Source of the DNA: a virus
IMG/VR virus record: IMGVR_UViG_3300042924_001821
Location: 1 to 53,215 of that record
Strand: one strand, 5' to 3'
Length of the DNA stretch: 53,215 nt
The translations under genes were made by a program, and so were the position numbers. Of this stretch, positions 15,444 through 44,270 are shown piece by piece (positions within the stretch are counted from its first letter, which is position 1; the number at the start of each line of letters is the position of its first letter). The notes under the pieces are model-generated. The model made no database searches and was not told the DNA's origin. It saw nothing but the letters and a program-made list of their open reading frames with translations.

Positions 15444-15459
15444 TTATCGGAAACGATAA
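15444..15459 (+). promoter_or_regulatory. Dispersed palindrome, copy 4 (centre GAAA)
   Basis: TTATCGGAAACGATAA, perfect arms. It directly follows a stop codon and ends 5 nt before the ATG at 15465. As RNA the loop would be a GAAA tetraloop. Confidence 0.75.
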
Positions 15460-15464
15460 TCCCT

Positions 15465-18009: not shown

Positions 18010-18012
18010 TTT

Positions 18013-19728
18013 ATGTCTATCGCAGAACTCATAATGACAGGAACCAATCGCGCATCGGAATCTACCGCATGGGTTGGAGATTCTTTGGCTAAACTTGGTC
18101 AGAATGTAGGACAAGCGTTAGCTCAACGCGAGCAGCAGAAGCAAGCGCAGGAGATGCTACCATTCTTGCAGCAGAGTATGCAGGAGTCGATGACACTTGC
18201 TGGACAAGGACAGACTGGCGAGGCGTATGCGAAGTTGATGCCGTTTATTACAAACCCATCGGTGATAAATAATCCAAATTTGTTGCTGCCAATAGAAACG
18301 GCACTAAAGTTAAATGAAAAAGCAGCGAATGACTTCTTGAGGCAGAGACAAATTAACGCATATCAAAGTCGTTCTTCAAGAAAATCGGCAGGTGGATTTG
18401 AAGTTCCTTCATTTGAAGAAATGGATGATTCTACTTCATTGGTTGATGCGAATGCGCCAGTCGAAGTGGACACAACTGTTGGAGGATATTATGATATTTT
18501 AGATAAACAAAATGCAGAAAATCTTCCACAAAATCAACCTCGTAGATTTACTGCTGGATTGAGAGATGAACAAACTCCGTTTTCATTTGGAATGGAAACT
18601 GGAAACGTATCATTATATATTGCTGATGAGGAAACAAAAAATAAAGCTGTATCTGCAATTCAAGACTATAAAACATATACACCAGATCAAAAATCTGAAG
18701 TTGTAGGAAAAATTGTTGATACAAGCAATCAACCTCCAGCAGATAATATTAGAGTAGACATACCGGGATTTGGACAAGGCTTTATTACAGGGCCATCAAT
18801 GGCAAGAGCGCAAGAGGTTACTGGAGTTAAACGAACTCAAAAAGTTTCTCAAAAATCTGGGCTTGAAAGACAAGAAGAAAAAACATACGGCCAAAAAGAA
18901 AAGACTCAAGATCAACTTGCATTTGAAGGATTTGCTCAAAACATTGGTGTAGCCTCATCAATGTTCAAACAAAATAAACAACTCCGTGATATTATGGAGA
19001 TGGCTGGTGGTGATATTACGCAAATCACAACTGACGATGATGTGGTTGAAGATGTAAATGGAAAACAAGTTCCAGTTAAAAGAGTTTTTGTTAAGGGTCA
19101 AGATGCTGGAATGCTTTCTATGGAAAGACCAATGGGTGCTGATGGCAAGCCAGACCCTCGTAGAATGAGTGAAGCCCAAGCTGTTGAAACTATTATTGAT
19201 GCGCCGGGATTGATTGAGCGATTTGGATGGAAATTCTACCCACAACAAGGCGAAAAACCAGCAGCGAAAGCTTCAACGGAATTGCAAGCTGGAATACCAG
19301 CAAATCAACTTACTACTACCGCTCCTCAAATCCCAGAAGAGGCAATGGCTCTACAAAAGATAGTTGAGCAAGGACAAGCCGCTAAAGCTGGAGAAACAGC
19401 CAAGAATGTTGAAGCGCGGATTAAGGATATTGACGCACAAATCAAGCGGTTGGGTTCTACAACTATTGAAAGAGGAGGTCGCCTTGCGTCTGAAGGAAAT
19501 ATACCTGCAAGAAGTAAAACATCAGAAGAAGCTCAAGCTGACATTCAAAAGATTACACAACTTAAAACTGAAAGAGAATTGCTATTTGCCAAAACAGAAA
19601 AAGCATATAACGCTGCAAAATCTGAAGGTCGTGTATTTCAAAATGCTGACGAAGTGAAATCCAGCAAAAAGAAATTTCCTGCTGGAACGATTATTTATAT
19701 TGGCAGAGAGCCAGCAAAAGTGAAATAA
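18013..19728 (+). CDS. Ejection / internal virion protein candidate (571 aa)
   Basis: Starts MSIAELIMTGTNRASESTAWVGDSLAKLGQNVGQALAQREQQ, mostly helical with Gln/Glu/Lys-rich stretches. A charged coil lies near residues 445-550 (AKNVEARIKDIDAQIKRLG, KTEKAYNAAKSEG). The end (SSKKKFPAGTIIYIGREPAKVK) looks like a small beta domain. Second gene of the ejection-type trio; TAA-TTT-ATG junction upstream. Confidence 0.5.
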   Translation: MSIAELIMTGTNRASESTAWVGDSLAKLGQNVGQALAQREQQKQAQEMLPFLQQSMQESMTLAGQGQTGEAYAKLMPFITNPSVINNPNLLLPIETALKLNEKAANDFLRQRQINAYQSRSSRKSAGGFEVPSFEEMDDSTSLVDANAPVEVDTTVGGYYDILDKQNAENLPQNQPRRFTAGLRDEQTPFSFGMETGNVSLYIADEETKNKAVSAIQDYKTYTPDQKSEVVGKIVDTSNQPPADNIRVDIPGFGQGFITGPSMARAQEVTGVKRTQKVSQKSGLERQEEKTYGQKEKTQDQLAFEGFAQNIGVASSMFKQNKQLRDIMEMAGGDITQITTDDDVVEDVNGKQVPVKRVFVKGQDAGMLSMERPMGADGKPDPRRMSEAQAVETIIDAPGLIERFGWKFYPQQGEKPAAKASTELQAGIPANQLTTTAPQIPEEAMALQKIVEQGQAAKAGETAKNVEARIKDIDAQIKRLGSTTIERGGRLASEGNIPARSKTSEEAQADIQKITQLKTERELLFAKTEKAYNAAKSEGRVFQNADEVKSSKKKFPAGTIIYIGREPAKVK

Positions 19729-19735
19729 TCAACCT

Positions 19736-22700
19736 ATGGAATTTGAATTTCTTGGTGAAGTTAGTGGTAAATCTGAAAAACCATCTACGACAAAACCGAA
19801 TGATTCTGGAATTGAGTTTGAATTTTTAGATGAAGCTACAGAGCAACCGTCTGGCACATCTTTCGGAAAAGAAGTATCACAGCTTGGGTCTGCATTTGTT
19901 GAATCTATTGGTCGTCCATTGGAAAACATGGGGGAATCTTTTGAGTCCTTTGGATTCACGGGTGTAGCTAATGCGCTTAAAGGAGCTATTACAGAACCAG
20001 AGAACTATGTTTCCGCAGGGCAAAGGTTTATAGAGCCAGCACCAGATGAAGCTCAGTTTATGGGATTCGCTTGGCAGTATGCTCCAAGAGCGGCAGTCGA
20101 ACAAGTCGGTCAAGCAATCGGAGCAATAGGAACAAGGGCAGTTGGTGCTGCTGCTGGTGGAGCAGTTGCTGGCCCACCGGGCGCGATTGCTGGTGGGTTT
20201 TTAGGCCCAGCAATATTTGGAGCCGCACAAGTTATCGGCCCAGTAGCTAAAGAACGAGCAAAGAACAATGGCCGCGAAGTTCCGAATAATAGTGACTTGG
20301 TTGCTGCTACTCTAACTGCTATCGGGTCTGGTTCTTTGGATGCGATTGGAGCAAGATACCTGCCCGGAGGAGACAAGGCTACTGGCAAATTCTTCAAACG
20401 AGTAGCTTCATCATTTGTTGGAGAAGGTGTGCTTACAGAAACTCCGCAATCTTTTATCGAGCAAATTGGTTCTACTGCTGGAACTGAAAAAGGATTAAAC
20501 ATCAATGTTAAGCAAGCTGTAGGTGAAGGATTGATTGGCGGCACAAGTGCTGCTGGACTTACAGCAATCGTTTCTCCTTTCTCTAAACCAACTGAGAACC
20601 AAGTTATCCGCACTCCAGAAGAAGCAGAGGAACTTGACATTAATGCTAAGGCTAACCAAGAAGCGATATTGTTGATGGGTGATCCAGCAGATCAAACCCA
20701 AAACGAGCGCATCACCAAATTAAAGGAAATAGAATCGGTCATAGCCAACAACGAAACTTTGATGAGTGGCTTGGAGCCTAATGCGCCAGAGAGAACCAAA
20801 CTTGATTTGGAGAATCGGGCGGCAATCAAAGAGGCTGAAAAACTGAAGTTGGAGATAAAGCAATCAGTAGGATTATCGGAACCGATAACAGAAGCCGAAC
20901 GTCAGCAAGCCGAGTTAGCCAAGGCGATAGTAGAAGAACCTACCCCAACTGTTAAGGAATCCTTGACAGTTCAGCCTGCACAAGCCGCCCCAGTAGCCGC
21001 ACCAGTAGAACAAGTAGTCACGCCACCAGTAGAGGTTGCGCCACTTCCCCTAAGAACAGTTGAAGAATCTATTCAGAACAAAGATACCTTTGAGTTTGAA
21101 GGGATGCGCGGGGCAGTAACACTTGAAGATGACACTGCTGTATTCCGTCCGTTTGGAACAAATGATAAGTATGAAGTTCCAATCAATCCCAACCAAGCTA
21201 TCAGTGAGATCGAAGGAATCCAATGGGTTCGCAAAGGACAGACTCGCCAAGTTCCAGTTGAGCCAACAATTCCAGAAGTTGCAGCAATAGTTGAATCGCA
21301 ACCACAGATTACAGAAGAAGAATTTAATGCTACGGAAGATGACTTCCAACTTCCTCCATCTTTGATTGAGATTGAAAAGTCACCAACGCTAAATGCGATA
21401 GCTGATATTTTTAATACGGGTGAATCGAAGATTGTCCAAGAAGGTAAGCGAGCGAAGAAAGTTTCAGCTACTCCAGAGTTCTATAGGCAGATCAGTCCAG
21501 AACAAGTTGATGTAGCCAATAAGCAAATTGATAATGCGTTAAGGATCATTGATAACCTGCCTGTATCTGAAGAACAGAAGCAAACATTGGCAGAACCATA
21601 TCTGTTAATCGACCAAGACATTTCAACTTATGAAAACAATCCAGAATACAAACAATACAAAGCCTCAATTCGCAGGGAAGTTCGCCCTGCTGACCAAGCT
21701 GTCGCACTCCCAGAAACTGTTGGCAAAACTAAAGCCACAGCAAAAAAACCAAAACTCGGAGAAAAAGGCGGCGTTCTAATCCCCACCAAAGAAGACTTCA
21801 TCCAAGCAGGACAGAACATCTACGAGGCTGGCATGGAGTTTGGTGCTTGGGCTAAACAGATGATCCAAAGATTCGGTGATGCGGTCAGGGAATTTCTTGG
21901 GGAAGTATGGCAAGCAGTGAGTGGTGCGCCAGCGAAGTTGAATGAACTGATGGGGTATCTTCCGAAGAAGGGTGAGACTGGAGCAGTCAATGTTGGTAAG
22001 GGTAAGATAGGTGAGAAAGCTAAAGCCGCAGAAAAACCAGCACAACCTACTTTAGAACAACCAACACCTACACCAGAGAAGCCAGCGGCAGAACCCGCGC
22101 CAACAGGTCGTGAGCAACCATCTAAAACTACTCGCCGCACCACAATAATGAGTGTAGAGGCGGGAGAAGAGGTAGAAACTCCAGAGGCTATTATTGCCAG
22201 AACAAAAGATTTACTTCGTAAACAATTCGATCCTACGAAAGTAACCGAGAAGAATACTACTGAAGCATTCCGCGCATTAGGGAAGTTGGCTGGAAATAGG
22301 AAAGAAGCATTGGCATACGCCGAACAACTTAATGACATCGGCAGATTGGTAGATAAATCTGGCGCAGCGAGTGAGATTAGCATGGGCGCAGCGTTGTTTG
22401 TGAATGATTTGTTTGAGTATTCCATCAGACTCGCGGCAGAAGGTGATAGCAAGATGCTTGGTATAATGATGGCAAACATCAACAGGCTACCTACCGCAAT
22501 GATTGGAGCGAGTGATGCGGGTAGAACGCTCGCGGCAAGAGCAGAGTTGAAAGCTCGATTCAGTATGATGGGACAAGCCGAGCAGGATGCCTACGCAAAC
22601 TATGTAGCAGAGTTCATCTACGGGCCTAACCCAACGAAAGAACAAATCAAATCCATCAAGGATGCCTATGCAGCGGTTGAGAAAACTCCACAAGTAACCG

Positions 22701-25639
22701 AGCAAGAATTGACTGATGAGATTGCAGCGGTTGGTGGCAGAACTGGAACTGACTTGGTTGGTAAGATCAACGAGGAGTTCACTAAAGCTACTGAGAAGAA
22801 GACCGAGCAGCGCAAGACTGAGTTGGAAGAACTTGATAAGGAATACAAGAAGATTCAAAACCAAGCAGACGCTGAGATTGAAAAGCTCGCCAAGATTCAG
22901 TCTGATACGCCTTCGTTCGATCCAGCAGCAGCAAGGCAGACCGCGAATGATGTCCGTGCTATCGTAGCTAATGACCTAAAGCAACGCCCAGACATGGGGC
23001 GCAAAGCTCCTTGGAAGTCTATGTTGGTTGCCAAACTACAAGAAGCAGGGGTGGAACTGGCGGCAGCAGAGACATTGGCAGATATTGTTTGGAGACAGCA
23101 TGAGATCAACAACCTTTCGAGGGAACTATCTTCAATCAACAAAGCGATAGAGAAGGGGCCAATCTCGGAGATTGTCAAAGCAATCAAAGAAACTCCGCTG
23201 GAAGATCAACAGAATCCTAACTGGAGATATGAGGTCATGCGTGACTACCTCCGCAGAGCAGGGTTGACTATTGCCCAATCGGAAAGGATTGCCAAGTTGA
23301 TGGACATCTCGCTCCAGAAACGCTTCACAATGGCGCAAGAGCAAGCATTCACAGATGCTATCAGTAAGTCTGCACCTTGGAAAGCTGGAGATACCAGAAG
23401 CCGCCGCGCATTTCAGAAGGTATTGCAAGCCCTCCGCGCTGGCGCATTAGACCCTGCAAGGAATGTATTGAGTGACATGGCGGCATTGAATGGATGGACT
23501 GGGTTTACTCCAGACCAATACAAGACTCTTCTCAAGAATGACGCTATCCTATCTGATCCAGAGTCCGCTGATGCAACAAAGGCTGAAGCGCATAAGGCAA
23601 TCCAAGACACCATCTCTAAAGCCAAGCTGCCTATCCGAGCAAGGGATGTTATCGGGCAATACTACGATGCTCAAGCGTTGAGCGGTATCCCTACTGTGAC
23701 TGTGAACATCTTCTCGCCTGCTGGTGTAGCGGTGAAGAATGCGCTAACCCAAGCCTTGAATGGTGTAATAACAGCAAGACCAGAGCAGATCACAGCTTCA
23801 TTGACTACCTTTATTGACTCAATCAAATCGTGGGCAAACACAGTAGCTTTCTCTTTCAAGAACAATGTCACAGTTTACTCTAATGTTGAATACTTGGTGA
23901 ATGATGAGGCGCTTCTGAAGCTCTACAAGAAAGGCGTAGATCAGTTTAACAACGGCAAGACTCCCCGCGATAGGGCAGACGGGGTAAAGAACATGATGAT
24001 TGGTATGATGGATTATGTTCGTCGTATCTTGAATGCTCTTGACTACGGAGCTATCGCTTCTCTTCAGAACCAATCGGTATCCAAGTATGCCTTGGCCGCT
24101 ATGCAGGCAAAGGGAATGTCCAGCAAGGATGGAGCAAAGATGCTCAATGCCATGATGGAAGAGAAGCGAAACTTCTACAATGACCAGATCGCTATCGGAA
24201 CCGATAAAAACAAAGCAGCGGTTCTTGCTGATGAGTTCTTCATCTCCTCATGGAGACAAGCATTGACTGACGCGAAACTTCCAGCGCAAGAAGTGATGGA
24301 TGCCGCGCTCAACGATGCTATGTCATCAGTAGGCAGAAACAGACAGTCACTCGACGCATTCCGCGAAGAGGATACTAATATTCGTGATGAAGGCGTGACA
24401 TCCTATCCTGCTATTTGGCTATTGGAGACAATGGCAAACGCTGCCAACCAAAGTGACAAGCAACTTATCAAAATCTTCAGCAGAATTATCTATGGATTCG
24501 CAGTAGTTCCCGCTCGCGTTCTACGAGAGACAGCATGGTTCTCTCCGTATGGAGCAGTTCGTTTTGCATACGATGCCATCGCAAAGAAGATGGGTAAGGC
24601 ATCTCCATATGCACAGAGTTTGGGTAATGATCTTCAGTATCGCCAAAGGCTGACTGAAACTATTACTGGTAGTTTAGTCATGCTTGCATTCGCGGCGGCA
24701 ATGTCATCATCAACCGAAGATGAAGATGATGAGAAGCCATTCAAGATTGTGGTAACTGGCAACGGCCCTCTCCGTAGTGAAGACCCGCAGTTCTACGATT
24801 CTTGGATGAAGAACAATAGGCCGAACACTGTGAGGGTTCAATTCGGTAAAACCAAATTCACGATCAATACCATGAGAGGGTTTGAAGCCTTTGCTTGGCC
24901 TGCCATGATGCTTGGCGCGGTGGATGACTGGCATATTCGCAGAAAGCAAAAGCGTGAGACGAATACTCCAGTGCAGATGGGTGATGCAGCTATCATTGGA
25001 GGGTTTATCTTGAGTGCTTCACTTCGTCGCGGCCCATATGCTTTTGCTGCTAAACCTCTCTTTGAAGCCTATGGAGATCGAGGAGTAGAGAGCTTGGCAA
25101 AGAGCCTTGCATTCCCCGCAAAGACTATAGTTCCGGTATTGGGATCAAGTCTTGCAAGTAACATCTCAAACTTCCTAAACGAGCCAGTAGATAGGCGAAC
25201 ATTGGAAGGTGCGTTGTGGGCTAATGTCCCATTCATCGGGCCTGCTGTAGCACCGAAATCTTTAAACGCATTTGGTGAACCAGCGATGGCAAACGATGCT
25301 GCTGACAAAATATTCAAGCTCGGAGTTCCGATTGTTTTTGACATCCCGACTGATAGGGATTCGGTGAATCTCCATGAGTTAGTCTTGAAGCAGGGTGGCG
25401 GGCCAAGCATACCGACTCGGAATCAGCTTGCACAGAGGCTCGATAGGCAACCAACCAACAAAGAATACGAGATGTTCGTGAAGGAATATGGTGCGGTTCT
25501 CACGAAGTCGATGAAGAAGAATTACGAGAAACTTTCTGCGATGAAACCGGAGGCTTACACTAAGGTTGTTGAGCGGATCGGTAATCGTGCAAAGGACATC
25601 GCGGAGAACAAAGTTAGGATAGCTACAAAAAAACCTTGA
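19736..25639 (+). CDS. Giant internal virion / ejection protein (1967 aa)
   Basis: The largest gene of the window. The N-terminus contains a duplicated EFEFLGE/EFEFLDE motif (2-8 and 25-31). A Gly/Ala-rich hydrophobic region at about 120-170 could insert in a membrane. Pro/Glu-rich linkers lie near 405-440 and 760-800, and a charged coiled coil near 1020-1070. The C-terminal third has hydrophobic stretches (GSLVMLAFAAAMSSS, about 1645) then an acidic patch. Transglycosylase or protease motifs were looked for and not seen. Size and placement at the end of the virion operon fit the largest ejection protein of a podovirus; a polyvalent phage protein is an alternative. It contains palindrome copies at 20873 and 24192. 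Confidence 0.6.
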   Translation: MEFEFLGEVSGKSEKPSTTKPNDSGIEFEFLDEATEQPSGTSFGKEVSQLGSAFVESIGRPLENMGESFESFGFTGVANALKGAITEPENYVSAGQRFIEPAPDEAQFMGFAWQYAPRAAVEQVGQAIGAIGTRAVGAAAGGAVAGPPGAIAGGFLGPAIFGAAQVIGPVAKERAKNNGREVPNNSDLVAATLTAIGSGSLDAIGARYLPGGDKATGKFFKRVASSFVGEGVLTETPQSFIEQIGSTAGTEKGLNINVKQAVGEGLIGGTSAAGLTAIVSPFSKPTENQVIRTPEEAEELDINAKANQEAILLMGDPADQTQNERITKLKEIESVIANNETLMSGLEPNAPERTKLDLENRAAIKEAEKLKLEIKQSVGLSEPITEAERQQAELAKAIVEEPTPTVKESLTVQPAQAAPVAAPVEQVVTPPVEVAPLPLRTVEESIQNKDTFEFEGMRGAVTLEDDTAVFRPFGTNDKYEVPINPNQAISEIEGIQWVRKGQTRQVPVEPTIPEVAAIVESQPQITEEEFNATEDDFQLPPSLIEIEKSPTLNAIADIFNTGESKIVQEGKRAKKVSATPEFYRQISPEQVDVANKQIDNALRIIDNLPVSEEQKQTLAEPYLLIDQDISTYENNPEYKQYKASIRREVRPADQAVALPETVGKTKATAKKPKLGEKGGVLIPTKEDFIQAGQNIYEAGMEFGAWAKQMIQRFGDAVREFLGEVWQAVSGAPAKLNELMGYLPKKGETGAVNVGKGKIGEKAKAAEKPAQPTLEQPTPTPEKPAAEPAPTGREQPSKTTRRTTIMSVEAGEEVETPEAIIARTKDLLRKQFDPTKVTEKNTTEAFRALGKLAGNRKEALAYAEQLNDIGRLVDKSGAASEISMGAALFVNDLFEYSIRLAAEGDSKMLGIMMANINRLPTAMIGASDAGRTLAARAELKARFSMMGQAEQDAYANYVAEFIYGPNPTKEQIKSIKDAYAAVEKTPQVTEQELTDEIAAVGGRTGTDLVGKINEEFTKATEKKTEQRKTELEELDKEYKKIQNQADAEIEKLAKIQSDTPSFDPAAARQTANDVRAIVANDLKQRPDMGRKAPWKSMLVAKLQEAGVELAAAETLADIVWRQHEINNLSRELSSINKAIEKGPISEIVKAIKETPLEDQQNPNWRYEVMRDYLRRAGLTIAQSERIAKLMDISLQKRFTMAQEQAFTDAISKSAPWKAGDTRSRRAFQKVLQALRAGALDPARNVLSDMAALNGWTGFTPDQYKTLLKNDAILSDPESADATKAEAHKAIQDTISKAKLPIRARDVIGQYYDAQALSGIPTVTVNIFSPAGVAVKNALTQALNGVITARPEQITASLTTFIDSIKSWANTVAFSFKNNVTVYSNVEYLVNDEALLKLYKKGVDQFNNGKTPRDRADGVKNMMIGMMDYVRRILNALDYGAIASLQNQSVSKYALAAMQAKGMSSKDGAKMLNAMMEEKRNFYNDQIAIGTDKNKAAVLADEFFISSWRQALTDAKLPAQEVMDAALNDAMSSVGRNRQSLDAFREEDTNIRDEGVTSYPAIWLLETMANAANQSDKQLIKIFSRIIYGFAVVPARVLRETAWFSPYGAVRFAYDAIAKKMGKASPYAQSLGNDLQYRQRLTETITGSLVMLAFAAAMSSSTEDEDDEKPFKIVVTGNGPLRSEDPQFYDSWMKNNRPNTVRVQFGKTKFTINTMRGFEAFAWPAMMLGAVDDWHIRRKQKRETNTPVQMGDAAIIGGFILSASLRRGPYAFAAKPLFEAYGDRGVESLAKSLAFPAKTIVPVLGSSLASNISNFLNEPVDRRTLEGALWANVPFIGPAVAPKSLNAFGEPAMANDAADKIFKLGVPIVFDIPTDRDSVNLHELVLKQGGGPSIPTRNQLAQRLDRQPTNKEYEMFVKEYGAVLTKSMKKNYEKLSAMKPEAYTKVVERIGNRAKDIAENKVRIATKKP
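20873..20888 (+). promoter_or_regulatory. Dispersed palindrome, intragenic, perfect (centre GAAC)
   Basis: TTATCGGAACCGATAA. Read in the frame LSEPIT, a different codon phase from the copies that encode IVTD or IGTD. Confidence 0.6.
24192..24207 (+). promoter_or_regulatory. Dispersed palindrome, intragenic, one mismatch (centre GAAC)
   Basis: CTATCGGAACCGATAA. Only the first base departs from the consensus. Encodes IGTDK. Confidence 0.5.
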
Positions 25640-25663
25640 CACCCGCAGAGGCTCATGTAGATT
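25636..25663 (+). promoter_or_regulatory. Sigma70-type promoter at the end of the virion operon
   Basis: -35 TTGACA (25636-25641), 16-bp spacer, -10 TAGATT (25658-25663) followed by GG. The same TTGACA-N16-TAGATTGG string recurs at 25792-25821. The -35 overlaps the TGA of the giant gene. Expected start near 25670. Confidence 0.55.
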
Positions 25664-25669
25664 GGCTCT

Positions 25670-25743
25670 GCAACATTCGGGATGTTGTATTCGTGTTATT
25701 CATTAGGTTGACGCACCTCGGAGAAATCTGGGGTGCGTTTTCT
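25670..25743 (+). ncRNA. Candidate small RNA of about 75 nt
   Basis: Between the promoter at 25636-25663 and the terminator at 25711-25741 there is no ORF. The would-be transcript opens with a hairpin (CAACAT / ATGTTG around a short TCGGG loop, about 25671-25687) and ends in the terminator stem. An independent promoter plus two hairpins suggests a small regulatory RNA. The alternative is that this is only the 3' end of the late message with a fortuitous promoter. Confidence 0.35.
25711..25741 (+). terminator. Rho-independent terminator closing the virion operon
   Basis: Stem 25711-25719 with 25730-25738 (ACGCACC/GGTGCGT plus one wobble and one C-G pair), 10-nt loop, then TTTT. It separates virion genes from the early-type genes that follow. 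Confidence 0.75.
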
Positions 25744-25745
25744 AA

Positions 25746-25761
25746 TTATCGGAACCGATAA
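25746..25761 (+). promoter_or_regulatory. Dispersed palindrome between terminator and early promoter (centre GAAC)
   Basis: TTATCGGAACCGATAA, perfect arms. It lies about 30 bp upstream of the -35 box at 25792, a place where an activator or repressor could act. Confidence 0.75.
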
Positions 25762-25791
25762 AAATATTTTCTAAAAAGTATTAAAAAAATG

Positions 25792-25819
25792 TTGACACGA
25801 TTTTCGCGGTATATAGATT
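25792..25819 (+). promoter_or_regulatory. Sigma70-type promoter for the rightward replication-gene operon
   Basis: TTGACA (25792-25797), 16-bp spacer, TAGATT (25814-25819). Start expected near 25826, which coincides with a GTG that opens the next ORF in frame. An AT-rich stretch lies just upstream. Confidence 0.65.
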
Positions 25820-25858
25820 GGGCTTGTGAACGGCACAACCTCCGTCCATAAAAATCCA

Positions 25859-26068
25859 ATGAAAGAAACACCAACAGTAAAAAAAGAAGTAGCAGAAAAA
25901 CCAGCAGTGAACTCCGAACTCCAGCGTGACATCTATCTCCGCTTGGTATCGGCAGCGGCAGCAGATGGACGATTCCTTCTCGGCAATCTTCCCAATGCAC
26001 AGGCAGTAGTCAAGCAGGGCGACCACCTCAAGGGTGTGGCTGAAATCCTTGCCAAGTGCTACGAATAA
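25859..26068 (+). CDS. Small protein, first gene of the rightward operon (69 aa)
   Basis: Encodes MKETPTVKKEVAEKPAVNSELQRDIYLRLVSAAAADGRFLLGNLPNAQAVVKQGDHLKGVAEILAKCYE. ATG 25859 is chosen. The in-frame GTG at 25826 lies at the predicted transcription start and would give a leaderless 80-residue form. The charged N-terminus is probably disordered, the rest helical. No family recognised. The stop overlaps the next start (TAATG). Confidence 0.55.
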   Translation: MKETPTVKKEVAEKPAVNSELQRDIYLRLVSAAAADGRFLLGNLPNAQAVVKQGDHLKGVAEILAKCYE

Positions 26069-26205
26069 TGGAAGACGATTACGATCTTTCTTCGGAAATC
26101 GAAGAGGCGCGTCACGAAGCATACATCCATAAATGCGCGATGCGCGACATGGATCAAGGCATCCGACCTACCTATTGGGACGAACCAAATGACGATCACG
26201 AATAG
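26068..26205 (+). CDS. Small acidic protein (45 aa)
   Basis: Encodes MEDDYDLSSEIEEARHEAYIHKCAMRDMDQGIRPTYWDEPNDDHE. It overlaps the upstream gene by TAATG and the nuclease gene by 17 nt, a compact early-operon arrangement. Function unknown. Confidence 0.5.
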   Translation: MEDDYDLSSEIEEARHEAYIHKCAMRDMDQGIRPTYWDEPNDDHE

Positions 26206-27058
26206 ATATGACCTCCCCGCCCCTATGTATCGGGCGTTGGCACACGATGGTTATATGGCTGGTCAAAGGAAAGCTGACATCTCAGTGACTACTTTGATTG
26301 GGCCACCGAAGATCAACCAACTCAAGAAACGATACTCTGACCAGATCGTAGAAGACGCATCCGATAGGGTGTGGGCATTGCTTGGTCAGTCAGTGCATAA
26401 AGTTCTTGAACTGGCAGGCGGCGAAGATGAGATGACTGAAAAGCGTCTATACAAAGAAATCAATGGATGGACGCTGACTGGTCAGACTGACCTCTATGAA
26501 GTGGAGAAAGGAATTGTCTCTGACTTCAAGGTAACTTCAGTCTTCTCATTTCTTCTCGGACAAAAATCTGAGTGGGTAGCCCAACTCAACTGCAACGCCC
26601 TACTTTGGAGAGAGTATGGGTATTCCCCAAAGAAACTCCAGATCGTCGCCATCCTCCGTGACTGGCAGGCAAGTAAGGCAGAGTTTGATAAAGAGTATCC
26701 TCAATGTGCAGTTCACATTGTTGACATACCACTTTGGAATAACGAAGAATGTTTGCGCTACGCTACGGAGAGGATTAAACTTCACCAAGCGGCGGCAGCA
26801 ATGCCAGACGATACCATCCCTGCCTGTGATCCAAAGGAACGCTGGGCTAAACCAGATACCTTTGCCATCAAGAAGGACGGGAACAAACGAGCAGCAAAAG
26901 TGTGCGAGACATTGGAGGAAGCTGAAAGACTGCTACCTACCTATGGCGCGAAACACTCAATCGAAAAACGAAGCGGAGGGGATATGCGCTGCGAGCGTTA
27001 CTGCTCAGTAGCACCCTTCTGCCACTACTACAAAACAACCTATAAATCAAATGAGTAA
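26189..27058 (+). CDS. PD-(D/E)XK nuclease, Cas4/RecB-like (289 aa)
   Basis: Motifs in order: GQSVH (66-70), GQTDLYEVEKGIVSDFKVTS with catalytic-type D101 and D112-F-K114, and QLNCNALLW (132-140). Near the C-terminus RCERYCSVAPFCHYY gives three spaced Cys residues, suggesting an iron-sulphur or zinc site as in Cas4/AddB-type nucleases. Lengths and spacing fit phage exonucleases that act in recombination with the single-strand binding protein encoded next. The start at 26189 keeps the conserved N-terminus NRYDLPAPMYRAL. It overlaps the downstream gene by 8 nt. Confidence 0.75.
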   Translation: MTITNRYDLPAPMYRALAHDGYMAGQRKADISVTTLIGPPKINQLKKRYSDQIVEDASDRVWALLGQSVHKVLELAGGEDEMTEKRLYKEINGWTLTGQTDLYEVEKGIVSDFKVTSVFSFLLGQKSEWVAQLNCNALLWREYGYSPKKLQIVAILRDWQASKAEFDKEYPQCAVHIVDIPLWNNEECLRYATERIKLHQAAAAMPDDTIPACDPKERWAKPDTFAIKKDGNKRAAKVCETLEEAERLLPTYGAKHSIEKRSGGDMRCERYCSVAPFCHYYKTTYKSNE

Positions 27059-27875
27059 CCAATTAGAAGGAATCGAACAGAAAGACATCATTAAACGAGT
27101 GACTGGTAAGGTCACTAAATTGTGGGAAGCCAAGACATTCAATGGCCCGAAGGGTGAGTTTGTCATCCAAGGTGGAGAGATTGAGATCGACGGACAAACC
27201 TACGGCCTCAAGTTCTTCAACAATACACAGGAACAATCTATCAAAGGTAATGTAGTCACATTGTCCTCAGTCCGTGGCAAGCATGGTCTGACTGGCGTAT
27301 CGCTGGAGCATGAGTCCTACGATGGTAAGAATGGTAGGGTAGATCGTGACATCATCAAGGTAACAGCCACTGGTAAGGTTGAGTTCGACTTGCCAAGCGA
27401 AGAGCCTGCCCGTGTCACCTCAACACCCAAGACTATCGTAACCGATAATCCAGAGAAGGCATTGGATGAGATTGTTGAGATGCACCAATACATCGACTCC
27501 TTGGTTCGCATGGCTTATCTCGGCAAGATCACAGACGAAGAAACCCTTCGCTCGTATGTCTCATCGGTCTTCATCGAAGCTAACCGCAAAGGTATCCACT
27601 ACTCATCGAAGGCCGAAGCACCAAAGAAGGAAGAACCGAAGGAAGAACTTAATCCCGATGACTGGGGTTCAGCAATCGTTCCAGAAGGACATCCTAAGTT
27701 CAAAGAACTTGGTGGCAAGAAGCTGGCAGAGATCGGCAAGCCTGCCCTTACTAAACTCTACGAGTATTTCTTGGAGAAAGGATTCACAACTCCATTCGCT
27801 AAGTGCGTAGAGAAAGCAGCGGAAGACCTCAGCCTCGATGCTCCAGTAGAAGAAGCAGACGAAATCCCTTGGTAA
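27051..27875 (+). CDS. Putative single-stranded-DNA-binding protein (274 aa)
   Basis: The N-terminal 110 residues are beta-rich (VTGKVTKLWEAKTFNGPKG, GEIEIDGQTYGLKFFN, GNVVTLSSVRGKHGL) and fit an OB fold. The middle is charged. The C-terminal tail, APVEEADEIPW, resembles the acidic tip ending in IPF by which SSB proteins recruit partners. It follows a RecB-like nuclease with overlapping ends, a common phage recombination pair. A palindrome copy lies at 27433-27448. Confidence 0.6.
   Translation: MSNQLEGIEQKDIIKRVTGKVTKLWEAKTFNGPKGEFVIQGGEIEIDGQTYGLKFFNNTQEQSIKGNVVTLSSVRGKHGLTGVSLEHESYDGKNGRVDRDIIKVTATGKVEFDLPSEEPARVTSTPKTIVTDNPEKALDEIVEMHQYIDSLVRMAYLGKITDEETLRSYVSSVFIEANRKGIHYSSKAEAPKKEEPKEELNPDDWGSAIVPEGHPKFKELGGKKLAEIGKPALTKLYEYFLEKGFTTPFAKCVEKAAEDLSLDAPVEEADEIPW
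27433..27448 (+). promoter_or_regulatory. Dispersed palindrome, intragenic, one mismatch (centre TAAC)
   Basis: CTATCGTAACCGATAA. Encodes IVTDN in the SSB-like gene. Confidence 0.5.
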
Positions 27876-27917
27876 TCCTGTTCTCCCCAGAACACCTAAC
27901 CTAAACCTAAACACAAC
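27876..27917 (+). promoter_or_regulatory. A/C-rich leader of the ParB-like gene
   Basis: 42-nt gap with almost no G after the first 20 nt, containing repeated CCTAAA units and ending ACACAAC directly before ATG. The same style of leader precedes leftward genes at 36321, 35416, 35130 and 33592. No Shine-Dalgarno. Confidence 0.45.
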
Positions 27918-28895
27918 ATGAAAAAGAAAGAATTAGAATTGTTCAGTCCAACTCAAGAGGGCGTTATTGTTCCTCTTAATAAGTATCTCAAGCAAATGGT
28001 AGAGTTTGCTAAATCAGAATGGCCGGGAGTAGCGATTACAGACTCCAAGGTAAAGGAAGTCTGGAAACTTGTAGCTTCCAACAGCTACATTGATGACGAC
28101 CAACCAAATGAGGTTGCCGAAATGTTTGAGAAGATGTCCGCTGACTTGGATATGGCCGAGGAAATGGAAGAGGAACGCCTTGCCATGCCAGCAGTAGCAG
28201 AAGAAGTTGAGGTCGAACTTACCGAAGATGAACCAGTCAATGAATCCCTCGCTCTTGTGGAGAGTGTGAAGGATGGATTGGAACTCAGTTCATTCACACA
28301 GAAGTTCGACATCGGATCGGGAATGACGCAGTGCGTTCCCAAAGGTAAGGTAGAGATGAAAGACTGGGTGGCGGCATTCGCCTTCGGTCTGACTCTGGAG
28401 TCCGGCGCACAATGGATCATCGGTGATTCGGTTGTAGCTTTGGAGAACGCAGGGCATGAGGATGTAGTGAACCAACTCTGTTCTAACTTTAAAAAGAGCT
28501 ATCCAACTGTGTCTGGTTACGCCCGTGCTTGCCGCGCATTCCCCGCTGATAAGCGTGATCCTGCCCTTCCATTCACAGTTTATCGAGAGATTGGCAACGC
28601 TAACTTCGGAGACAACAGCAGTAAGAAACAGCAAGAACTTCTTGAAGCAGCGAAGACGGAGAAGCTATCCTCAACTGAAGTCCGCAACCGAGTGCGGCAT
28701 GAGCAGGGTAAAGAAGTAGATAAACCATCCGGTCATCGCTTCCTTCTCCTCAATGTCGGTAACTTCAGCAACTCAGAAGTTCTCCGCTCAATGCCCGAAG
28801 AAGTGCAAGAACATCAACTGCTGATCGACCTTGGCGACAAGTCATGGTTTGATCCAGCGGAAGGTGAATGGATGAAATTCTTGAAAGAGGCTTGA
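27918..28895 (+). CDS. ParB/KorB-like DNA-binding protein candidate (325 aa)
   Basis: The N-terminal 130 residues are helical and acidic. Residues about 160-285 (GAQWIIGDSVVALENAG ... SYPTVSGYARACRAFPADKRDPALPFTVYREI ... ELLEAAKTEKLSSTEVRNRVR) match the plan of a helical DNA-binding region found in ParB-like and plasmid replication/partition proteins: a short helix, TVSGYARACRAFP, LPFTVYREI, then LSSTEVR. No nuclease motif seen. It may act in regulation, partition or replication; all are inferred. Confidence 0.45.
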   Translation: MKKKELELFSPTQEGVIVPLNKYLKQMVEFAKSEWPGVAITDSKVKEVWKLVASNSYIDDDQPNEVAEMFEKMSADLDMAEEMEEERLAMPAVAEEVEVELTEDEPVNESLALVESVKDGLELSSFTQKFDIGSGMTQCVPKGKVEMKDWVAAFAFGLTLESGAQWIIGDSVVALENAGHEDVVNQLCSNFKKSYPTVSGYARACRAFPADKRDPALPFTVYREIGNANFGDNSSKKQQELLEAAKTEKLSSTEVRNRVRHEQGKEVDKPSGHRFLLLNVGNFSNSEVLRSMPEEVQEHQLLIDLGDKSWFDPAEGEWMKFLKEA

Positions 28896-28896
28896 T

Positions 28897-29370
28897 ATGA
28901 GTGAGTGGGAAACATTTTGCGATACCTGCTACTACGATCTGTGGCGGTTGCGCCGGAAGGATGAGCGGGGGTTTAATGATGGGTATCACCTCCAGAATGA
29001 GAAAGAAGCGAAGGCTTTGGTCGAACTATTGAACCGACTTGAGCGTGAGCGAGATTTCTCAAGAAAAAACCACGCGCTTGCAGTTGAATCAATCTTTGCA
29101 TGGAAAGAACGAGCGAAGAAAGCGGAACGCGAGCGCGACGAAGCGAGGGCAGACGCTCATAATTACAAAGAGGGGTATCATATTTACAGCCTTCAAGCTG
29201 ATTTTATAGAGCGCAAGCTAAACGAAACGAAAAAACAAATAAAAGAGCTAATATCTATTGCAAAACGAGCTATTTCATTAGCTGAAATAGATGTTGATAA
29301 CGACAAGTTTGGAATCGTATCTGAACTTAGGTATGAATTAAGAGAAATCATGCAGGAGGAAGCGAAATGA
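28897..29370 (+). CDS. Coiled-coil protein (157 aa)
   Basis: Starts MSEWETFCDTCYYDLWRLRRKD and continues as a long charged helix with LERERD, AERERDEARADA and IERKLNETKKQIKEL heptads. It shares the ERERDEAR style with genes at 29558, 42061 and 42482. Function unknown. The stop overlaps the next start (ATGA). Confidence 0.55.
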   Translation: MSEWETFCDTCYYDLWRLRRKDERGFNDGYHLQNEKEAKALVELLNRLERERDFSRKNHALAVESIFAWKERAKKAERERDEARADAHNYKEGYHIYSLQADFIERKLNETKKQIKELISIAKRAISLAEIDVDNDKFGIVSELRYELREIMQEEAK

Positions 29371-29489
29371 ATAAAACAGCAGTAGCATTAGCATTTATTT
29401 GCGGTTTTTATGTGGGGTTACTTCTTACTGCACAGTTAATGTTAGTGTTTTTTGTTAATCCAATTCAGGAAGACGCTATTAGACTGTGA
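29367..29489 (+). CDS. Single-span membrane micro-protein (40 aa)
   Basis: Encodes MNKTAVALAFICGFYVGLLLTAQLMLVFFVNPIQEDAIRL; residues 5-31 are hydrophobic. It is coupled by ATGA to the gene upstream. Probably inner-membrane; role unknown. Confidence 0.5.
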   Translation: MNKTAVALAFICGFYVGLLLTAQLMLVFFVNPIQEDAIRL

Positions 29490-29498
29490 TATGCAGAA

Positions 29499-29561
29499 AT
29501 GAAACTACAAACACCATACGATACTAAATCAGTATTTACTTGGAAGGAAAACGCAAAATGA
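29499..29561 (+). CDS. Possible 20-residue ORF
   Basis: Encodes MKLQTPYDTKSVFTWKENAK and overlaps the next start as ATGA. It fills the only gap in a tightly coupled run, but its length gives little statistical support. Confidence 0.3.
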   Translation: MKLQTPYDTKSVFTWKENAK

Positions 29562-29755
29562 ATTACCAGCCTACACCAGAGACGGATGCAGTATTGGATC
29601 GCTTTTTGGGATCGAGAAAATGGCAGGAGCTTACAGATTTAAGCTGCAAGCTGGAGCGCGAACGCAACGAGGCGAGAGCGCAAAACGCCAAACTCCTAAA
29701 CAAACTTGATAAACTTTATCGTGACGCAGAAATCGAACGATTCAAGAGGAGGTAA
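29558..29755 (+). CDS. PETD-type coiled-coil protein (65 aa)
   Basis: The start at 29558 (MNYQPTPETDAVLDRF) is preferred over a TTG at 29540. The N-terminal TPETDA plus KLERERNEARAQNAKLLNKLDKL heptads place it with 42061 and 42482 in one small paralogous family on both strands. Function unknown. Confidence 0.55.
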   Translation: MNYQPTPETDAVLDRFLGSRKWQELTDLSCKLERERNEARAQNAKLLNKLDKLYRDAEIERFKRR

Positions 29756-29756
29756 A

Positions 29757-30026
29757 ATGAGTGATAATAGAACAATGATTCAAAAAATCTTAGTGAAGCT
29801 ATGCGTGTTCTCATCTAAGCAACTCATAGGCATTGCTAACAAAGCGTTGAATGATAGGCAGGAAATATTTGAAAGATTAGAAAAAGAGAAAGCAAGATTT
29901 CAAGCTATCAACTCACGCTTGCTGGTAAGGCTGGCGATGACAGAGAGAGCGCGAAACGAAGCTCAAGCAGAAGTGCAAAGATTAACTAACTTAGAAATAG
30001 CAAGACAACAAAACAAAGAACAATAA
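29757..30026 (+). CDS. Helical protein with a good Shine-Dalgarno (89 aa)
   Basis: The start at 29757 is fixed by AGGAGG at 29747-29752, one of the few clear ribosome-binding sites in the window. Encodes MSDNRTMIQKILVKLCVFSSKQLIGIANKAL followed by a charged coil (RARNEAQAEVQRLTNLEIARQQ). Related in style to the PETD group. Function unknown. Confidence 0.55.
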   Translation: MSDNRTMIQKILVKLCVFSSKQLIGIANKALNDRQEIFERLEKEKARFQAINSRLLVRLAMTERARNEAQAEVQRLTNLEIARQQNKEQ

Positions 30027-30029
30027 TTT

Positions 30030-30311
30030 ATGTCAGAACCAACACAACAAAACGAAACATCCAAAACAATTCTTGAGGCTTTTAGCTTCATCAAATGTGA
30101 GGATGAGAAACTAAACGAACGAGTCCACGCTATGGCGAGTCTCTTACATACAGCAGCGATGATGGTAGTCCGATCTGAATCCCGCAAGGGTGAAGGGTTT
30201 GAAGCTATCCGCTACTTGGAAACGGCATTCCTTTACTATAAGGAGTCCCAATTCCGCAAGCGATTCGATAAGGAAGAGGAGAAAGAAGAGCCTTCTCGCA
30301 TCGTAACCTAA
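30030..30311 (+). CDS. Small helical protein, last gene of the rightward operon (93 aa)
   Basis: Encodes MSEPTQQNETSKTILEAFSFIKCEDEKLNERVHAMASLLHTAAMMV... with an acidic EEEKEEPSR tail. TAA-TTT-ATG junction upstream and bidirectional terminator downstream. The pattern of helices around EAIRYLETAFLYYKES recalls small phage helper proteins, but no function is assigned. Confidence 0.5.
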   Translation: MSEPTQQNETSKTILEAFSFIKCEDEKLNERVHAMASLLHTAAMMVVRSESRKGEGFEAIRYLETAFLYYKESQFRKRFDKEEEKEEPSRIVT

Positions 30312-30328
30312 CCATCAAGACAACAAAA

Positions 30329-30370
30329 AAGCCCACCTTGGATTTCTCCTTGGTGGGCTTCTTGCTTTTT
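30329..30370. terminator. Bidirectional rho-independent terminator
   Basis: Stem AAGCCCACC (30329-30337) with GGTGGGCTT (30352-30360), continued by GGA/TCC after a 2x2 internal loop. A-rich on the left (six A) and T-rich on the right (cttgcttttt), so it can end both the rightward operon and the leftward helicase operon. Confidence 0.85.
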
Positions 30371-30374
30371 AGAA

Positions 30375-31997
30375 TCAGATTAACTCTTCTTCTTTTGGAG
30401 CTAATGTAATAGTTGGATCGACCTCGCCATCTGCGAGGACATCAAGCCGCTTGAGTTTAGTGTCCAATTTCTCACAGATAGATTCCTCGATAGGAACACC
30501 AGCCGCGTATATGAGATACTGGATTGAACGGGATTTTCCACCTGCTCTATGCACTCGACCCAATACCTGCTTGGTGTCGAAAATTGAAGGGCAAGGCATA
30601 ATTAGCGCAACTCGTGGATGGTTGCCGTTTAGATCGTGGAGGTTTAATCCTTCACGGCAGGCTTGGATTTGTCCGATAATGACTCGGCTCTTATCATTCT
30701 GGAACGAATCAATTTTGCCCCGGCGTTCAATCTCGTTCTGTCCTCCGAAGATAGCGCAATCAGTCTTCAGTTCTTCCATGAGCCATGCGCGGGTTTCGCT
30801 GTAATTGACTGCAATGAACACCGAATTGCCTTCTTCGATTAAATCACGCGCCATTGCCGCCACCGCTGGAGCTTTGAGGGCTTCGATCCTCTGCCTTGCA
30901 CGGGTCTGTTCTGCCAGCACATTTGCCGAAAAATTTTCTTGCATCCTCAACTCTTCGATGCGGTTACATAAATCTTCGTATTCACCAGCAATCTTTCGAG
31001 CATTGTCCATGTCGAAGGCTTTAGCTTTGATTAACGTTTCAGGGAACGCATCACCAAGGTCTGAATGCCTCAGACGATTACCTTTTTCGGGATAAATTCG
31101 GCTATGCAACTTCTTTAGGACTGAATAACCTCCGGTGAACTGCATTCCAAAGCGGGTCTTCCTGCATCCGTTCTGACTGAGGAAACGGAAATAATCTTTC
31201 CCGCCTTGGTGAAGACCGAGGAACTGACCAATCGCCCATAACTTTGTTGGATCATCGGCAATGGTAGCAGACAGAGCAATGGCAGGGATATTCTGAACTA
31301 CTGAATCCCGAACGAGGAAAGCGTTCTGGGTAGCTTCACCTTTACCGCGATGAACCTCATCGAATACCAGAAGGACATCTTCGGGCAGCATGAAGCGGAA
31401 TGTCTTTTTGTTCTCGTCTGTCCAGCGTCCGAGTTGAGACTTACCAGTTTTCGCCCACTCCCAGCCACAAATCTCAAAGACCTCAACGCCCATCATCTTC
31501 GCGGCACGATGCCAGTCAGTAGTGATAGGCTTCGGACAGACTACCGCAATGCGTTTGCCTAACTCCCGTGCAATACCCAAGGCGCAGAAGGTTTTACCAA
31601 CGCCTGTGGAGTGACCCAAAAGAACGCGATTGTATTTGTTCATGGAGGCAACGCCCATCTGGACGGAGGTTTGCTGATACTCAAACAAGCCTTCGGGGTG
31701 GAGAAGCGGAATCAGATTAAGTTCTGGCTCTACCTCAGTCTGAGTATCGGTTACGATAATCTGCTTAAACTTGAGTTGATCGTCTGACCAATGGGTTAGT
31801 TGCCATTCTTCGCGGAACTTGCCAAGCTGGATACCAGCATCGGACATTTGCTTTTTAAATAGTTCCTTGTCCTCACCATAGACTTTCCAGAAAGCCTGAG
31901 TGATAGGGGCTTTCTTGAGGAGTCGAACGCCTCGCTTTGTGTTTAGTTGAATGGGATGCGACCACTCAACTGTTGCCATCAAATCATTTATGTTCAT
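30375..31997 (-). CDS. SF2 (DEVH) helicase (540 aa)
   Basis: Walker A GHSTGVGKT (128-136), DEVH (213-216), motif III SAT (243-245), late motif with IIGQIQACREGLNL (about 449-462) and motif VI QVLGRVHRAGGKS (about 486-498). These make a complete superfamily 2 ATPase of Snf2/DEAD type with two RecA-like lobes. Roles known for phage SF2 enzymes include replication, recombination and counter-defence; which applies is not visible. Last gene of a leftward chain, starting by ATGA overlap with the gene at 31994, ending just before the shared terminator. Contains a palindrome copy at 31744. Confidence 0.85.
   Translation of the reverse strand: MNINDLMATVEWSHPIQLNTKRGVRLLKKAPITQAFWKVYGEDKELFKKQMSDAGIQLGKFREEWQLTHWSDDQLKFKQIIVTDTQTEVEPELNLIPLLHPEGLFEYQQTSVQMGVASMNKYNRVLLGHSTGVGKTFCALGIARELGKRIAVVCPKPITTDWHRAAKMMGVEVFEICGWEWAKTGKSQLGRWTDENKKTFRFMLPEDVLLVFDEVHRGKGEATQNAFLVRDSVVQNIPAIALSATIADDPTKLWAIGQFLGLHQGGKDYFRFLSQNGCRKTRFGMQFTGGYSVLKKLHSRIYPEKGNRLRHSDLGDAFPETLIKAKAFDMDNARKIAGEYEDLCNRIEELRMQENFSANVLAEQTRARQRIEALKAPAVAAMARDLIEEGNSVFIAVNYSETRAWLMEELKTDCAIFGGQNEIERRGKIDSFQNDKSRVIIGQIQACREGLNLHDLNGNHPRVALIMPCPSIFDTKQVLGRVHRAGGKSRSIQYLIYAAGVPIEESICEKLDTKLKRLDVLADGEVDPTITLAPKEEELI
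31744..31759 (-). promoter_or_regulatory. Dispersed palindrome, intragenic, one mismatch (centre TAAC on - strand)
   Basis: On the coding strand TTATCGTAACCGATAC, encoding IVTDT in the helicase gene. The KAAM centre follows the direction of transcription. Confidence 0.5.
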
Positions 31998-32572: not shown

Positions 32573-32577
32573 TTTAT

Positions 32578-42847: not shown

Positions 42848-43038
42848 GGCAGCATACTATCTACATCTTGTGGTTCTGTCAATACTTTTGTTTCAGAAAA
42901 ATATTGGTTCATTATCTTGAGTCCTTCGTTGTGGTAGTTCTCTGCTATGCAATACCTTTCTTTATCTTGAGCTTCCCAGATTGCGTTTGCCGCCTCCAGA
43001 TACTTCAACGCTTTTCCGTATGCTTGGTCGATTGTCAT
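42844..43038 (-). CDS. Small TPR-like helical protein (64 aa)
   Basis: Encodes MTIDQAYGKALKYLEAANAIWEAQDKERYCIAENYHNEGLKIMNQYFSETKVLTEPQDVDSMLP, two helices with Ala-rich spacing. It starts 1 nt from the helicase stop. Function unknown. Confidence 0.5.
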   Translation of the reverse strand: MTIDQAYGKALKYLEAANAIWEAQDKERYCIAENYHNEGLKIMNQYFSETKVLTEPQDVDSMLP

Positions 43039-44270
43039 TAGTAAACCTCCTCAAGTCTTGAGATGTCACCGCGCATGATGATTTCCGTAGAATAGTTCCT
43101 CTGACCACGGCGGTTCTTCTTGATTGTCAACCTGCTCTTGTCTCCCTTGTGTTCGATATACACAACTTGGTCAGAGTGCATCCCTATTGCCCGTGATTCG
43201 CGTAGTCTTCCTTCGTCGTTAAGCTGGGAAGCAGTCAGCATAATCGAGTTATTCTTGAGCGCAGCTACCTTTAAGCGTCTTGCTATCTCAGAAATCTGGC
43301 TTTCTCTGCCTTCTGCACCATCAAATGCGATGATTTGGAGGTAATCTACCACGATAATATCTGCCCGATTTTCCCCCGTATACCGATTTATATGGCACTC
43401 TATCTCGTCAATTTCGGCTATTCCATCCACGATTTCAAGGGGTAACTGGTGTAATTTTAACAATGCGCCACTGATTTTGGCGAGTTCGTCTTTGTTTGCG
43501 GTCTTGTAATCCTCCGGTTCTCTAATCGGATAACCAGCGATGTTGCAAGCCATGCGAGTTAGGATGTCCTTCGCTTTCATTTCGAGGCTGAAGAACAGAA
43601 CTGACTTTCCTTCCAGTAGATTTGCGAGTGCCGCTTGCACAAGATAGATTGATTTTCCTCCACCTGTCTCTGATGCTACTGTCATCATCTCGCCTTTGTG
43701 CATTCCACCTTTGAGCGCACGATCTACTTTGAGGAGTCCAGTAGGGTAAAAATCTTTTACTGCTTTTCCTTCCATCTCATCAATGATTTCGATGATGAGG
43801 TCTTTGACTGGTTTCACTTTTGATGTGCGATCCTCGGCACACTTCATTATCGTTTCCGATAATTCCTTCAGATTTGCTTTGCCTGTCCGTAGGTTTGGCT
43901 CTTCCTTCTCCATGAGGATCAGAACATCGCGGTATGCCTTCGTGCGGTGAAGATGCTTCCGGTAGTCATCTGCCATATCTTGGCAAACCTTTCCAGAAGC
44001 TACCTTCATCGTAGCGAACATTTCGTGAATCGCATCCTCGCCACCCGCTGCTTCCAACTGACCAGTTGCCTCAAGCTCTGCTATGGCAGAAAACGGGCAG
44101 CAAGAACCTGTCCGCTGGTGAACCCCTTGGAGCGCATTAAAAACGATTCTGTTGGCTGGTATGGCGAAATAATCGCTATCCCATGTTTGTTGGGAAAGGA
44201 TGTTTCTGTCGATTGCGATGAGTGACAACGCTGCCACTTCACTCTTTCGTGCTATTGGGACTTTTTTCAT
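43038..44270 (-). CDS. DnaB-like replicative helicase (410 aa)
   Basis: The N-terminal helical domain (EVAALSLIAIDRNILSQQTWDSDYF) is followed by a RecA-like core: Walker A ASETGGGKS (199-207), VLFFSLEMKAKDILTRM (about 224-240), Walker B IIVVDYLQII (about 303-312) and ASQLNDEGRLRESRAIGMHSDQVVYIEH. Typical hexameric 5'-3' helicase. Paired with the initiator upstream in a lambda O/P-like order, it would be loaded at an origin within that gene. No polymerase is encoded, so host polymerase is probably used. A palindrome copy lies at 43847. Confidence 0.88.
   Translation of the reverse strand: MKKVPIARKSEVAALSLIAIDRNILSQQTWDSDYFAIPANRIVFNALQGVHQRTGSCCPFSAIAELEATGQLEAAGGEDAIHEMFATMKVASGKVCQDMADDYRKHLHRTKAYRDVLILMEKEEPNLRTGKANLKELSETIMKCAEDRTSKVKPVKDLIIEIIDEMEGKAVKDFYPTGLLKVDRALKGGMHKGEMMTVASETGGGKSIYLVQAALANLLEGKSVLFFSLEMKAKDILTRMACNIAGYPIREPEDYKTANKDELAKISGALLKLHQLPLEIVDGIAEIDEIECHINRYTGENRADIIVVDYLQIIAFDGAEGRESQISEIARRLKVAALKNNSIMLTASQLNDEGRLRESRAIGMHSDQVVYIEHKGDKSRLTIKKNRRGQRNYSTEIIMRGDISRLEEVY
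43847..43862 (-). promoter_or_regulatory. Dispersed palindrome, intragenic, perfect (centre GAAA on - strand)
   Basis: On the coding strand TTATCGGAAACGATAA, identical to copy 4. It encodes LSETI, a reading phase different from the IVTD-type copies. Confidence 0.6.

Follow-up and report, generated by a model that had tools for sequence, protein, structure and literature searches.

In the excerpts of PMC12197685, sar of phage P22 and c4 of P1/P7 are described as phage RNAs of 68/69 and 77 nt that act on the ant mRNA, and sar is reported to interfere with translation initiation. The same excerpts present OOP of lambda as a 77-nt RNA that has its own promoter, acts in cis and lowers cII expression, and PreS (LPR1) of lambda as a trans-acting, Hfq-dependent RNA of about 88 nt that targets the host gene dnaN. 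Targets are known for few phage small RNAs (sRNAs), and the examples tabulated in this source belong to phages or prophages with cultured bacterial hosts. Here, we describe a predicted sRNA encoded between the virion operon and the following, probably early operon in a single IMG/VR virus record of 53,215 bases (IMGVR_UViG_3300042924_001821; this whole stretch is called the window). The carriers of the element are uncultured freshwater phages that are known from metagenomes alone. With moderate confidence, we read the element as a phage-encoded, trans-acting antisense sRNA that would pair with the start of the mRNA for a 325-amino acid (aa) helix-turn-helix protein (gene 27918) and probably also with that of a DnaB-like helicase.

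As far as these RNAs are portrayed in the excerpts, the element resembles sar and c4 in being a small phage RNA that would have a phage mRNA as its pairing partner or target. However, it lies on the same strand as its target at a distance of about 2.2 kb, has its own promoter and pairs through blocks of 8-13 bp, and the target is a putative DNA-binding protein instead of an antirepressor. Similarly, it would share with OOP the features of a phage RNA that has its own promoter and acts on a phage regulator but does not overlap its target; as the sRNA shares the plus strand with gene 27918, about 2.2 kb away, it is not a cis-antisense RNA of the OOP type. Like PreS, it would be a trans-acting phage sRNA linked to replication, whereas its supported targets are phage genes and not a host gene. 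The kind is already known, since sar, c4 and OOP lower the translation of phage regulators according to the same excerpts (PMC12197685). Within the scope of our literature searches, what is new is the RNA family, its location and the target that covaries with it.

Two promoters frame the element. The string TTGACA-N16-TAGATTGG at 25636-25665 (P1) recurs at 25792-25821 (P2), and the upstream gene (19736-25639) terminates inside the -35 box of P1. The window holds two matches to TTGACA-N(14-20)-TAGATT, whereas 0.08 are expected, and none of 100 shuffles contained two. Thus, the sequence-only reading, which had noted the same promoter string twice at a spacing of 156 bp, was correct, and the occurrence of both exceeds chance expectation. 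Its term duplicated promoter needs one correction: both are good sigma-70 promoters, but one is not a copy of the other, as their spacers are unrelated and their -10 boxes differ in many relatives (e.g., TAATCT versus TAGATT). The argument from a duplicated promoter to a small RNA is weak in itself, while the small RNA is supported by other, comparative evidence.

Relatives were gathered via the exonuclease gene 3' of the element, which gave 53 loci in addition to the more distant L231. The set compared here comprises the window, 52 of the 53 exonuclease-derived loci and L231; L044 was omitted for want of upstream DNA. The order of promoter, 5' hairpin, linker, terminator and palindrome was found in all 54 loci, representing 36 distinct RNAs, with a pattern whose linker alternatives were composed after the sequences had been inspected; its first version matched 46/54. 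Likewise, TTGAC-N17-TANNNT and a 16-bp palindrome after the terminator are present in 54/54, both having formed part of the search pattern. Moreover, in every locus the upstream frame stops between -6 and +17 nt relative to TTGAC, though the frame ends themselves differ. The same promoter pattern precedes the element in the diverged phage L392.

Folding of 25670-25745 yields two stems with an energy of -31.1 kcal/mol (z -5.66), and none of 200 shuffles was equally stable. The second stem is a terminator-like hairpin at 25710-25739, and the open linker between the stems contains UUCGUGUU. There is one terminator-like site in the region, a count that is not above that of shuffles (2.6). No ORF of at least 60 aa occurs within the RNA, whose length in relatives (70-86 nt) does not vary by threes; stops are present in 14, 13, and 27 of the 36 distinct RNAs in frames 0, 1, and 2, respectively. 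The hairpin, absence of an ORF and terminator that had been read behind the first promoter are thus borne out by folding and the ORF check.

A covariance model built from five RNAs matched 51/54 loci at E<1e-4, missing the most diverged L045, L055, and L231, and detected no additional copy in the window with E<0.1. In the aligned matches, 99.2% of stem cells are paired, and both sides have changed in eight pairs, namely 5/7 of the 5' hairpin and 3/13 of the terminator. The covariation score of 0.319 (0.171 in shuffles) was reached by 0/500 of these, on an alignment that was fitted to the model and hence favours the structure. In addition, a stem of at least 5 bp starts at nt 1-2 in 34/36 distinct RNAs as against 11% of shuffles, and the terminator was recovered in all 14 relatives folded, 13 of them with z < -3. 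At the gathering score, no Rfam 15 family was found in the window; below threshold, the single match with E<0.1 was BSnc120 on the opposite strand, at 23.9 bits versus 114.

Two observations weigh against the sRNA reading. RNAalifold did not call the 5' hairpin on the alignment, and the two loci of type F (L397 and L398; types are those of the linker, given below) carry the RNA with a weak P1 and no U-run after the hairpin. At 2366-2446 of these loci, both hairpins are kept, and the terminator stem passes directly into the palindrome; lacking a U-run, these RNAs may be terminated in another way.

The proposal that this is a discrete small RNA rather than only a message end gains support from the conserved unit, the stem covariation and the linker-target covariation described below, as judged from sequence comparison. 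A promoter and a conserved open linker would be unnecessary for a plain message end, which favours the sRNA. A related alternative is that the locus is regulatory in cis only, with the terminator insulating the P2 operon from the virion operon and the P1 transcript serving as an attenuated or antiterminated leader, as in pR'-tR' of lambda with its 6S RNA or put of HK022. The placement of the terminator between two operons of the same direction, with P1 pointing into the P2 operon, would suit such a role. However, a promoter, a conserved open linker and a match to a distant start codon would all be superfluous in an insulator, and no boxA- or put-like element was noticed by eye, no dedicated search having been made. 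We therefore regard a purely cis-acting element as improbable.

The linker of the proposed trans-acting sRNA is predicted to pair across the start codon of gene 27918. In the window, the duplex has an energy of -12.7 kcal/mol and a co-fold gain of -13.6 kcal/mol, and the site is largely unpaired. Linker and leader vary together across the diverged types (linker/leader): type A, UUCAUGUU / AACAUGAA, plus UUAGG / CCUAA upstream; type B, UUCAUUAGU / ACUAAUGAA; type C, UUUUCAUGUGUU / AACACAUGAAAA; type D, UUCAUGUGUU / AACACAUGAA; type D', UCAUGUGU / ACACAUGA; and type F, UUCAUAUGU / ACAUAUGAA. For type F, the leader was known before the sRNA was read, and the sRNA then showed the matching CAUAUG.

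This cognate preference was examined by permuting linkers among leaders, with L044 and L003 (identical to the window here) omitted and identical linker-leader pairs entered once. In the initial family test, gene 27918 gave a cognate z of -4.35 (39 pairs), and none of 10 other nearby families fell below -2.1. With three newly found phages, cognate versus permuted pairing reached z -5.0 over 41 distinct linker-leader pairs, a value equalled in 0/10,000 permutations, and the non-A types alone retained the preference (p=0.0005). For the five remaining families represented by 40 loci or more, z ranged from -0.65 to +1.60. Genome-wide tests used the whole records of six relatives and the window, that is, seven phages. 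Among 29 gene families, gene 27918 ranked first (p=0.0004, about 0.01 after multiplication by 29), and it also ranked first of 13 families when the full sRNA was co-folded (p=0.0004). A perfect block of at least 8 nt covers its AUG in 6/7 genomes. Of the 22 families that occur in each of the four sequence contexts, gene 27918 is the sole one with such a block in 4/4, a score reached by 0/23 wrong assignments. In L045, the target block of 13 nt exceeds every other non-self complement of the entire record; in L231, the block (10 nt) shares the maximum of the record with two other sites, and in L055 (11 nt) it is the longest in the locus examined.

Several results speak against this target or soften it. 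By plain duplex energy, the target is 10th of 68 starts in the window and ranks 3/69, 5/66, 20/67, 6/59, and 5/72 in five other phages; the seventh phage (type F) was left out of this ranking as its gene had been called from an upstream ATG. The type-A block over the AUG of the window includes one G-U pair, type A alone shows no cognate preference (p=0.48, n=28), and the independent linker-target changes are few, amounting to about four contexts. In addition, linker shuffles that keep CAU match the observed matched-start counts in 21/400 to 105/400 per genome (5-26%), and other starts display a small general cognate effect (p=0.023). Given the modest energy ranks and unremarkable CAU-keeping counts, the assignment of the target rests on covariation and not on the strength of pairing.

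The last two results bear on the possibility that the complementarity is a by-product of the CAU in the linker and of shared A-rich start contexts that drift by lineage, with no regulation by pairing. Shared start contexts could indeed explain part of the signal, in view of the general cognate effect. However, 27 of the 29 families experience the same lineages and drift and still rank below gene 27918 and dnaB, and control linkers, either reversed (z +3.2) or complemented (z -0.4), have no comparable cognate advantage. We see only a slim chance that the pairing is incidental. The behavior of type A raises another question, namely whether a discrete sRNA has a host mRNA or other RNA as its main target, the matches to phage starts being secondary. 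In type A, the linker core TGTT-ATTCAT is nearly invariant despite variable leaders, which, together with the lack of cognate preference noted above, would suit such a target; furthermore, phage sRNAs that act on host functions appear in the excerpts of PMC12197685 (PreS on dnaN and DicF on ftsZ). A host target alone would not predict that the linker and the leader of gene 27918 change together across types, and we consider this explanation unlikely, if less so than the two preceding ones. Collectively, comparison of the relatives shows a conserved architecture, stem covariation and linker-target covariation. The features of a trans-acting base-pairing sRNA found here are its own promoter and intrinsic terminator (type F being the exception), a conserved non-coding structure and, computationally, an open seed pairing with a target mRNA.

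The DnaB-like helicase is the second candidate target and was the best-pairing start of the window in the first start-site comparison. It is second of the 29 families in the seven phages (p=0.0022, about 0.06 after multiplication by 29) and second of 13 in co-folding with the full sRNA (p=0.0014), and it has a perfect AUG block of at least 8 nt in 6/7 genomes and in 3/4 sequence contexts. It is retained as a candidate on these four grounds. Against it, its leaders are highly variable among type-A phages, and pairing with the phage's own sRNA is weak in some (L028, -4.4; L011, -6.0). In the larger permutation test, DnaB starts were found for types D and D' and not for F and B, and the downstream start was used for type C; the family-ranking, AUG-block, and context tests used the upstream start for type C.

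Other starts were considered and set aside. For the first gene of the P2 operon (gene 25859), many type-A phages show complementarity between CUAAUGAA and UUCAUUAG, yet this gene shows no cognate preference as a main target, and 31/120 starts in the window pair at least equally well. The exonuclease start at 26189 pairs strongly in the window, but this is not conserved (rank 80 of 120 upon group swap). A general preference of the linker for gene starts of the window weakened when the shuffles kept CAU.

In the mechanism that we propose, host RNA polymerase would initiate at P1 and stop at the terminator, and the 5' hairpin and terminator would protect the ends of the RNA while about 20 nt of linker stay open. 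This stretch would base-pair with the translation start of the gene 27918 mRNA, made from the P2 operon, and probably also with that of the DnaB-like helicase mRNA. In leaders that mostly lack a Shine-Dalgarno (SD) sequence, occupation of the AUG would block ribosome entry, and both the DNA-binding protein and the replicative helicase would be made in lower amounts. Repression and timing are inferred here, and the opposite sign, activation, may hold. SD-like tetramers occur at just 11/49 gene starts of the window, so most leaders are A-rich, which may point to a bacterial host with little reliance on SD sequences. The A-rich leaders of the window frequently carry AACCTAA or ACACATG.

At E 0.001, neither Pfam nor PHROG offers a match to the 325-aa protein; the remaining matches are weak and scattered. 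In the predicted structure, residues about 142-266, in the middle of the protein, resemble the DNA-binding domains of ParB/Noc. For the first structural model, the top Foldseek match was Noc (7nfu; E 0.046, probability 1.0), and VIA placed ParB/Noc first, with Z 8.5 to Spo0J-parS (rmsd 3.6 over 116) and the unrelated helical Raf1 at 8.1. For the second, deeper model, the best ParB was at rank 9 in Foldseek (E 2.2), and VIA placed ParB/Noc first (Z 8.4, rmsd 3.9 over 116), with Raf1 at 7.8; KorB was not among the matches listed in the structural alignment of this model. The alignments to ParB/Noc span only residues about 105-266, and the N-terminal CTPase domain was not recognised. A ParB/Noc-like protein is thus likely but unproven on the basis of these models.

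The excerpts of PMC11790492 and PMC7383237 describe KorB/OB (plasmid RK2), Noc/NBS, and ParB/parS as pairs of a ParB-family DNA-binding fold with 16-bp sites. The phages studied here are similar in that 16-bp palindromes are dispersed over the genome, and the predicted target may have a fold of this kind; they differ in that the resemblance is limited to the helix-turn-helix part, without Pfam support, and binding of the palindrome is a guess. The palindrome, TTATCGNNNNCGATAA, has 16 sites in the window at no more than one mismatch, 10 of them perfect. In 624 kb of relatives, its 14-bp core is found 280 times against an expectation of <1 at equal base frequencies, and each of the seven phage genomes (about 53 kb) has 16-27 copies. 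We propose it as a candidate site of a phage DNA-binding protein. As one copy lies between the sRNA terminator and P2, the 325-aa protein, if it bound there, could also feed back on its own operon. In the window (25792-25821) and in relatives, the P2 spacer frequently contains a palindrome half-site, CGATAATCG or CGATTATCG, an indication that the protein proposed to bind the palindrome may also regulate P2. The leader after P2 (25826-25857 and relatives) includes the conserved hairpin GGACGG-CACAACxx-CCGTCC; as judged by eye, relatives differ in its stem.

Table 1 Features of the sRNA locus, its candidate targets and the palindrome, in window coordinates
Feature	Position	Strand	Remarks
P1, sigma-70-type sRNA promoter, TTGACA-N16-TAGATT(GG)	25636..25665	+	-35 overlaps stop codon of upstream gene
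Predicted small RNA, ~74 nt	25670..25743	+	fold z -5.66; covariance model match 98.3 bits
5' hairpin from predicted +1	25670..25688	+	stem kept in relatives, changes on both sides
Open conserved linker, predicted pairing region	25689..25709	+	mostly unpaired in partition function; TGTT/ATTCAT columns nearly invariant
Terminator hairpin and U-rich tail	25710..25743	+	13 pairs, 100% paired in relatives
16-bp palindrome TTATCGGAACCGATAA	25746..25761	.	directly after terminator; candidate protein-binding site
P2, promoter of following (probably early) operon	25792..25821	+	
First gene of P2 operon, 69 aa	25859..26068	+	cognate pairing z +0.38
Predicted pairing site across start codon of gene 27918	27904..27923	+	pairs with sRNA 25689-25708
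Best-supported target, 325-aa protein with helix-turn-helix region resembling ParB/Noc DNA-binding domains	27918..28895	+	third gene of P2 operon
Second candidate target, DnaB-like helicase	43038..44270	-	PHROG 19, 5.3e-55; CTAATGAA across start complementary to linker
TTATCGNNNNCGATAA window sites	1527, 7249, 9387, 12655, 15444, 20873, 24192, 25746		
TTATCGNNNNCGATAA window sites, continued	27433, 31744, 35469, 37599, 40248, 43847, 45505, 47038		

The gene content of the window is phage-like, including the DnaB-like helicase, a terminase-like protein, an exonuclease and tail fibre proteins. Comparison of 14000-34000 with 50,697 phage records found no near match, and scans of genome contigs for relatives, made as a host search, found none. 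In pattern scans of IMG/VR, the matches listed that had a promoter or palindrome nearby were confined to the same set of contigs, as judged by eye, and the element was present in 0/25 loci with more distant exonucleases (L243-L267). One of 53 scanned ORFs of the window has an NrdR-like zinc-ribbon domain (PF22811, 1.5e-10). Between the first leader of the operon and the exonuclease, L012 and L027 carry extra DNA that by eye resembles a GIY-YIG-type homing endonuclease, and L006 and L011 carry an inserted repeat-rich gene.

The sRNA, its helix-turn-helix target and the 16-27 TTATCGNNNNCGATAA sites might form one circuit, in which a ParB/Noc/KorB-like protein coats or silences the phage genome, starting at palindromes spread over both coding and intergenic DNA, and the sRNA doses this protein together with DnaB, timing replication versus packaging or late expression. 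We offer this circuit tentatively, as a doubtful extension of the pairing model. For these phages, known only as metagenomic sequence, the candidate target of an sRNA could be named from comparative sequence alone, through changes on both pairing sides, and the sRNA would be tied to a possible genome-wide DNA-binding system.

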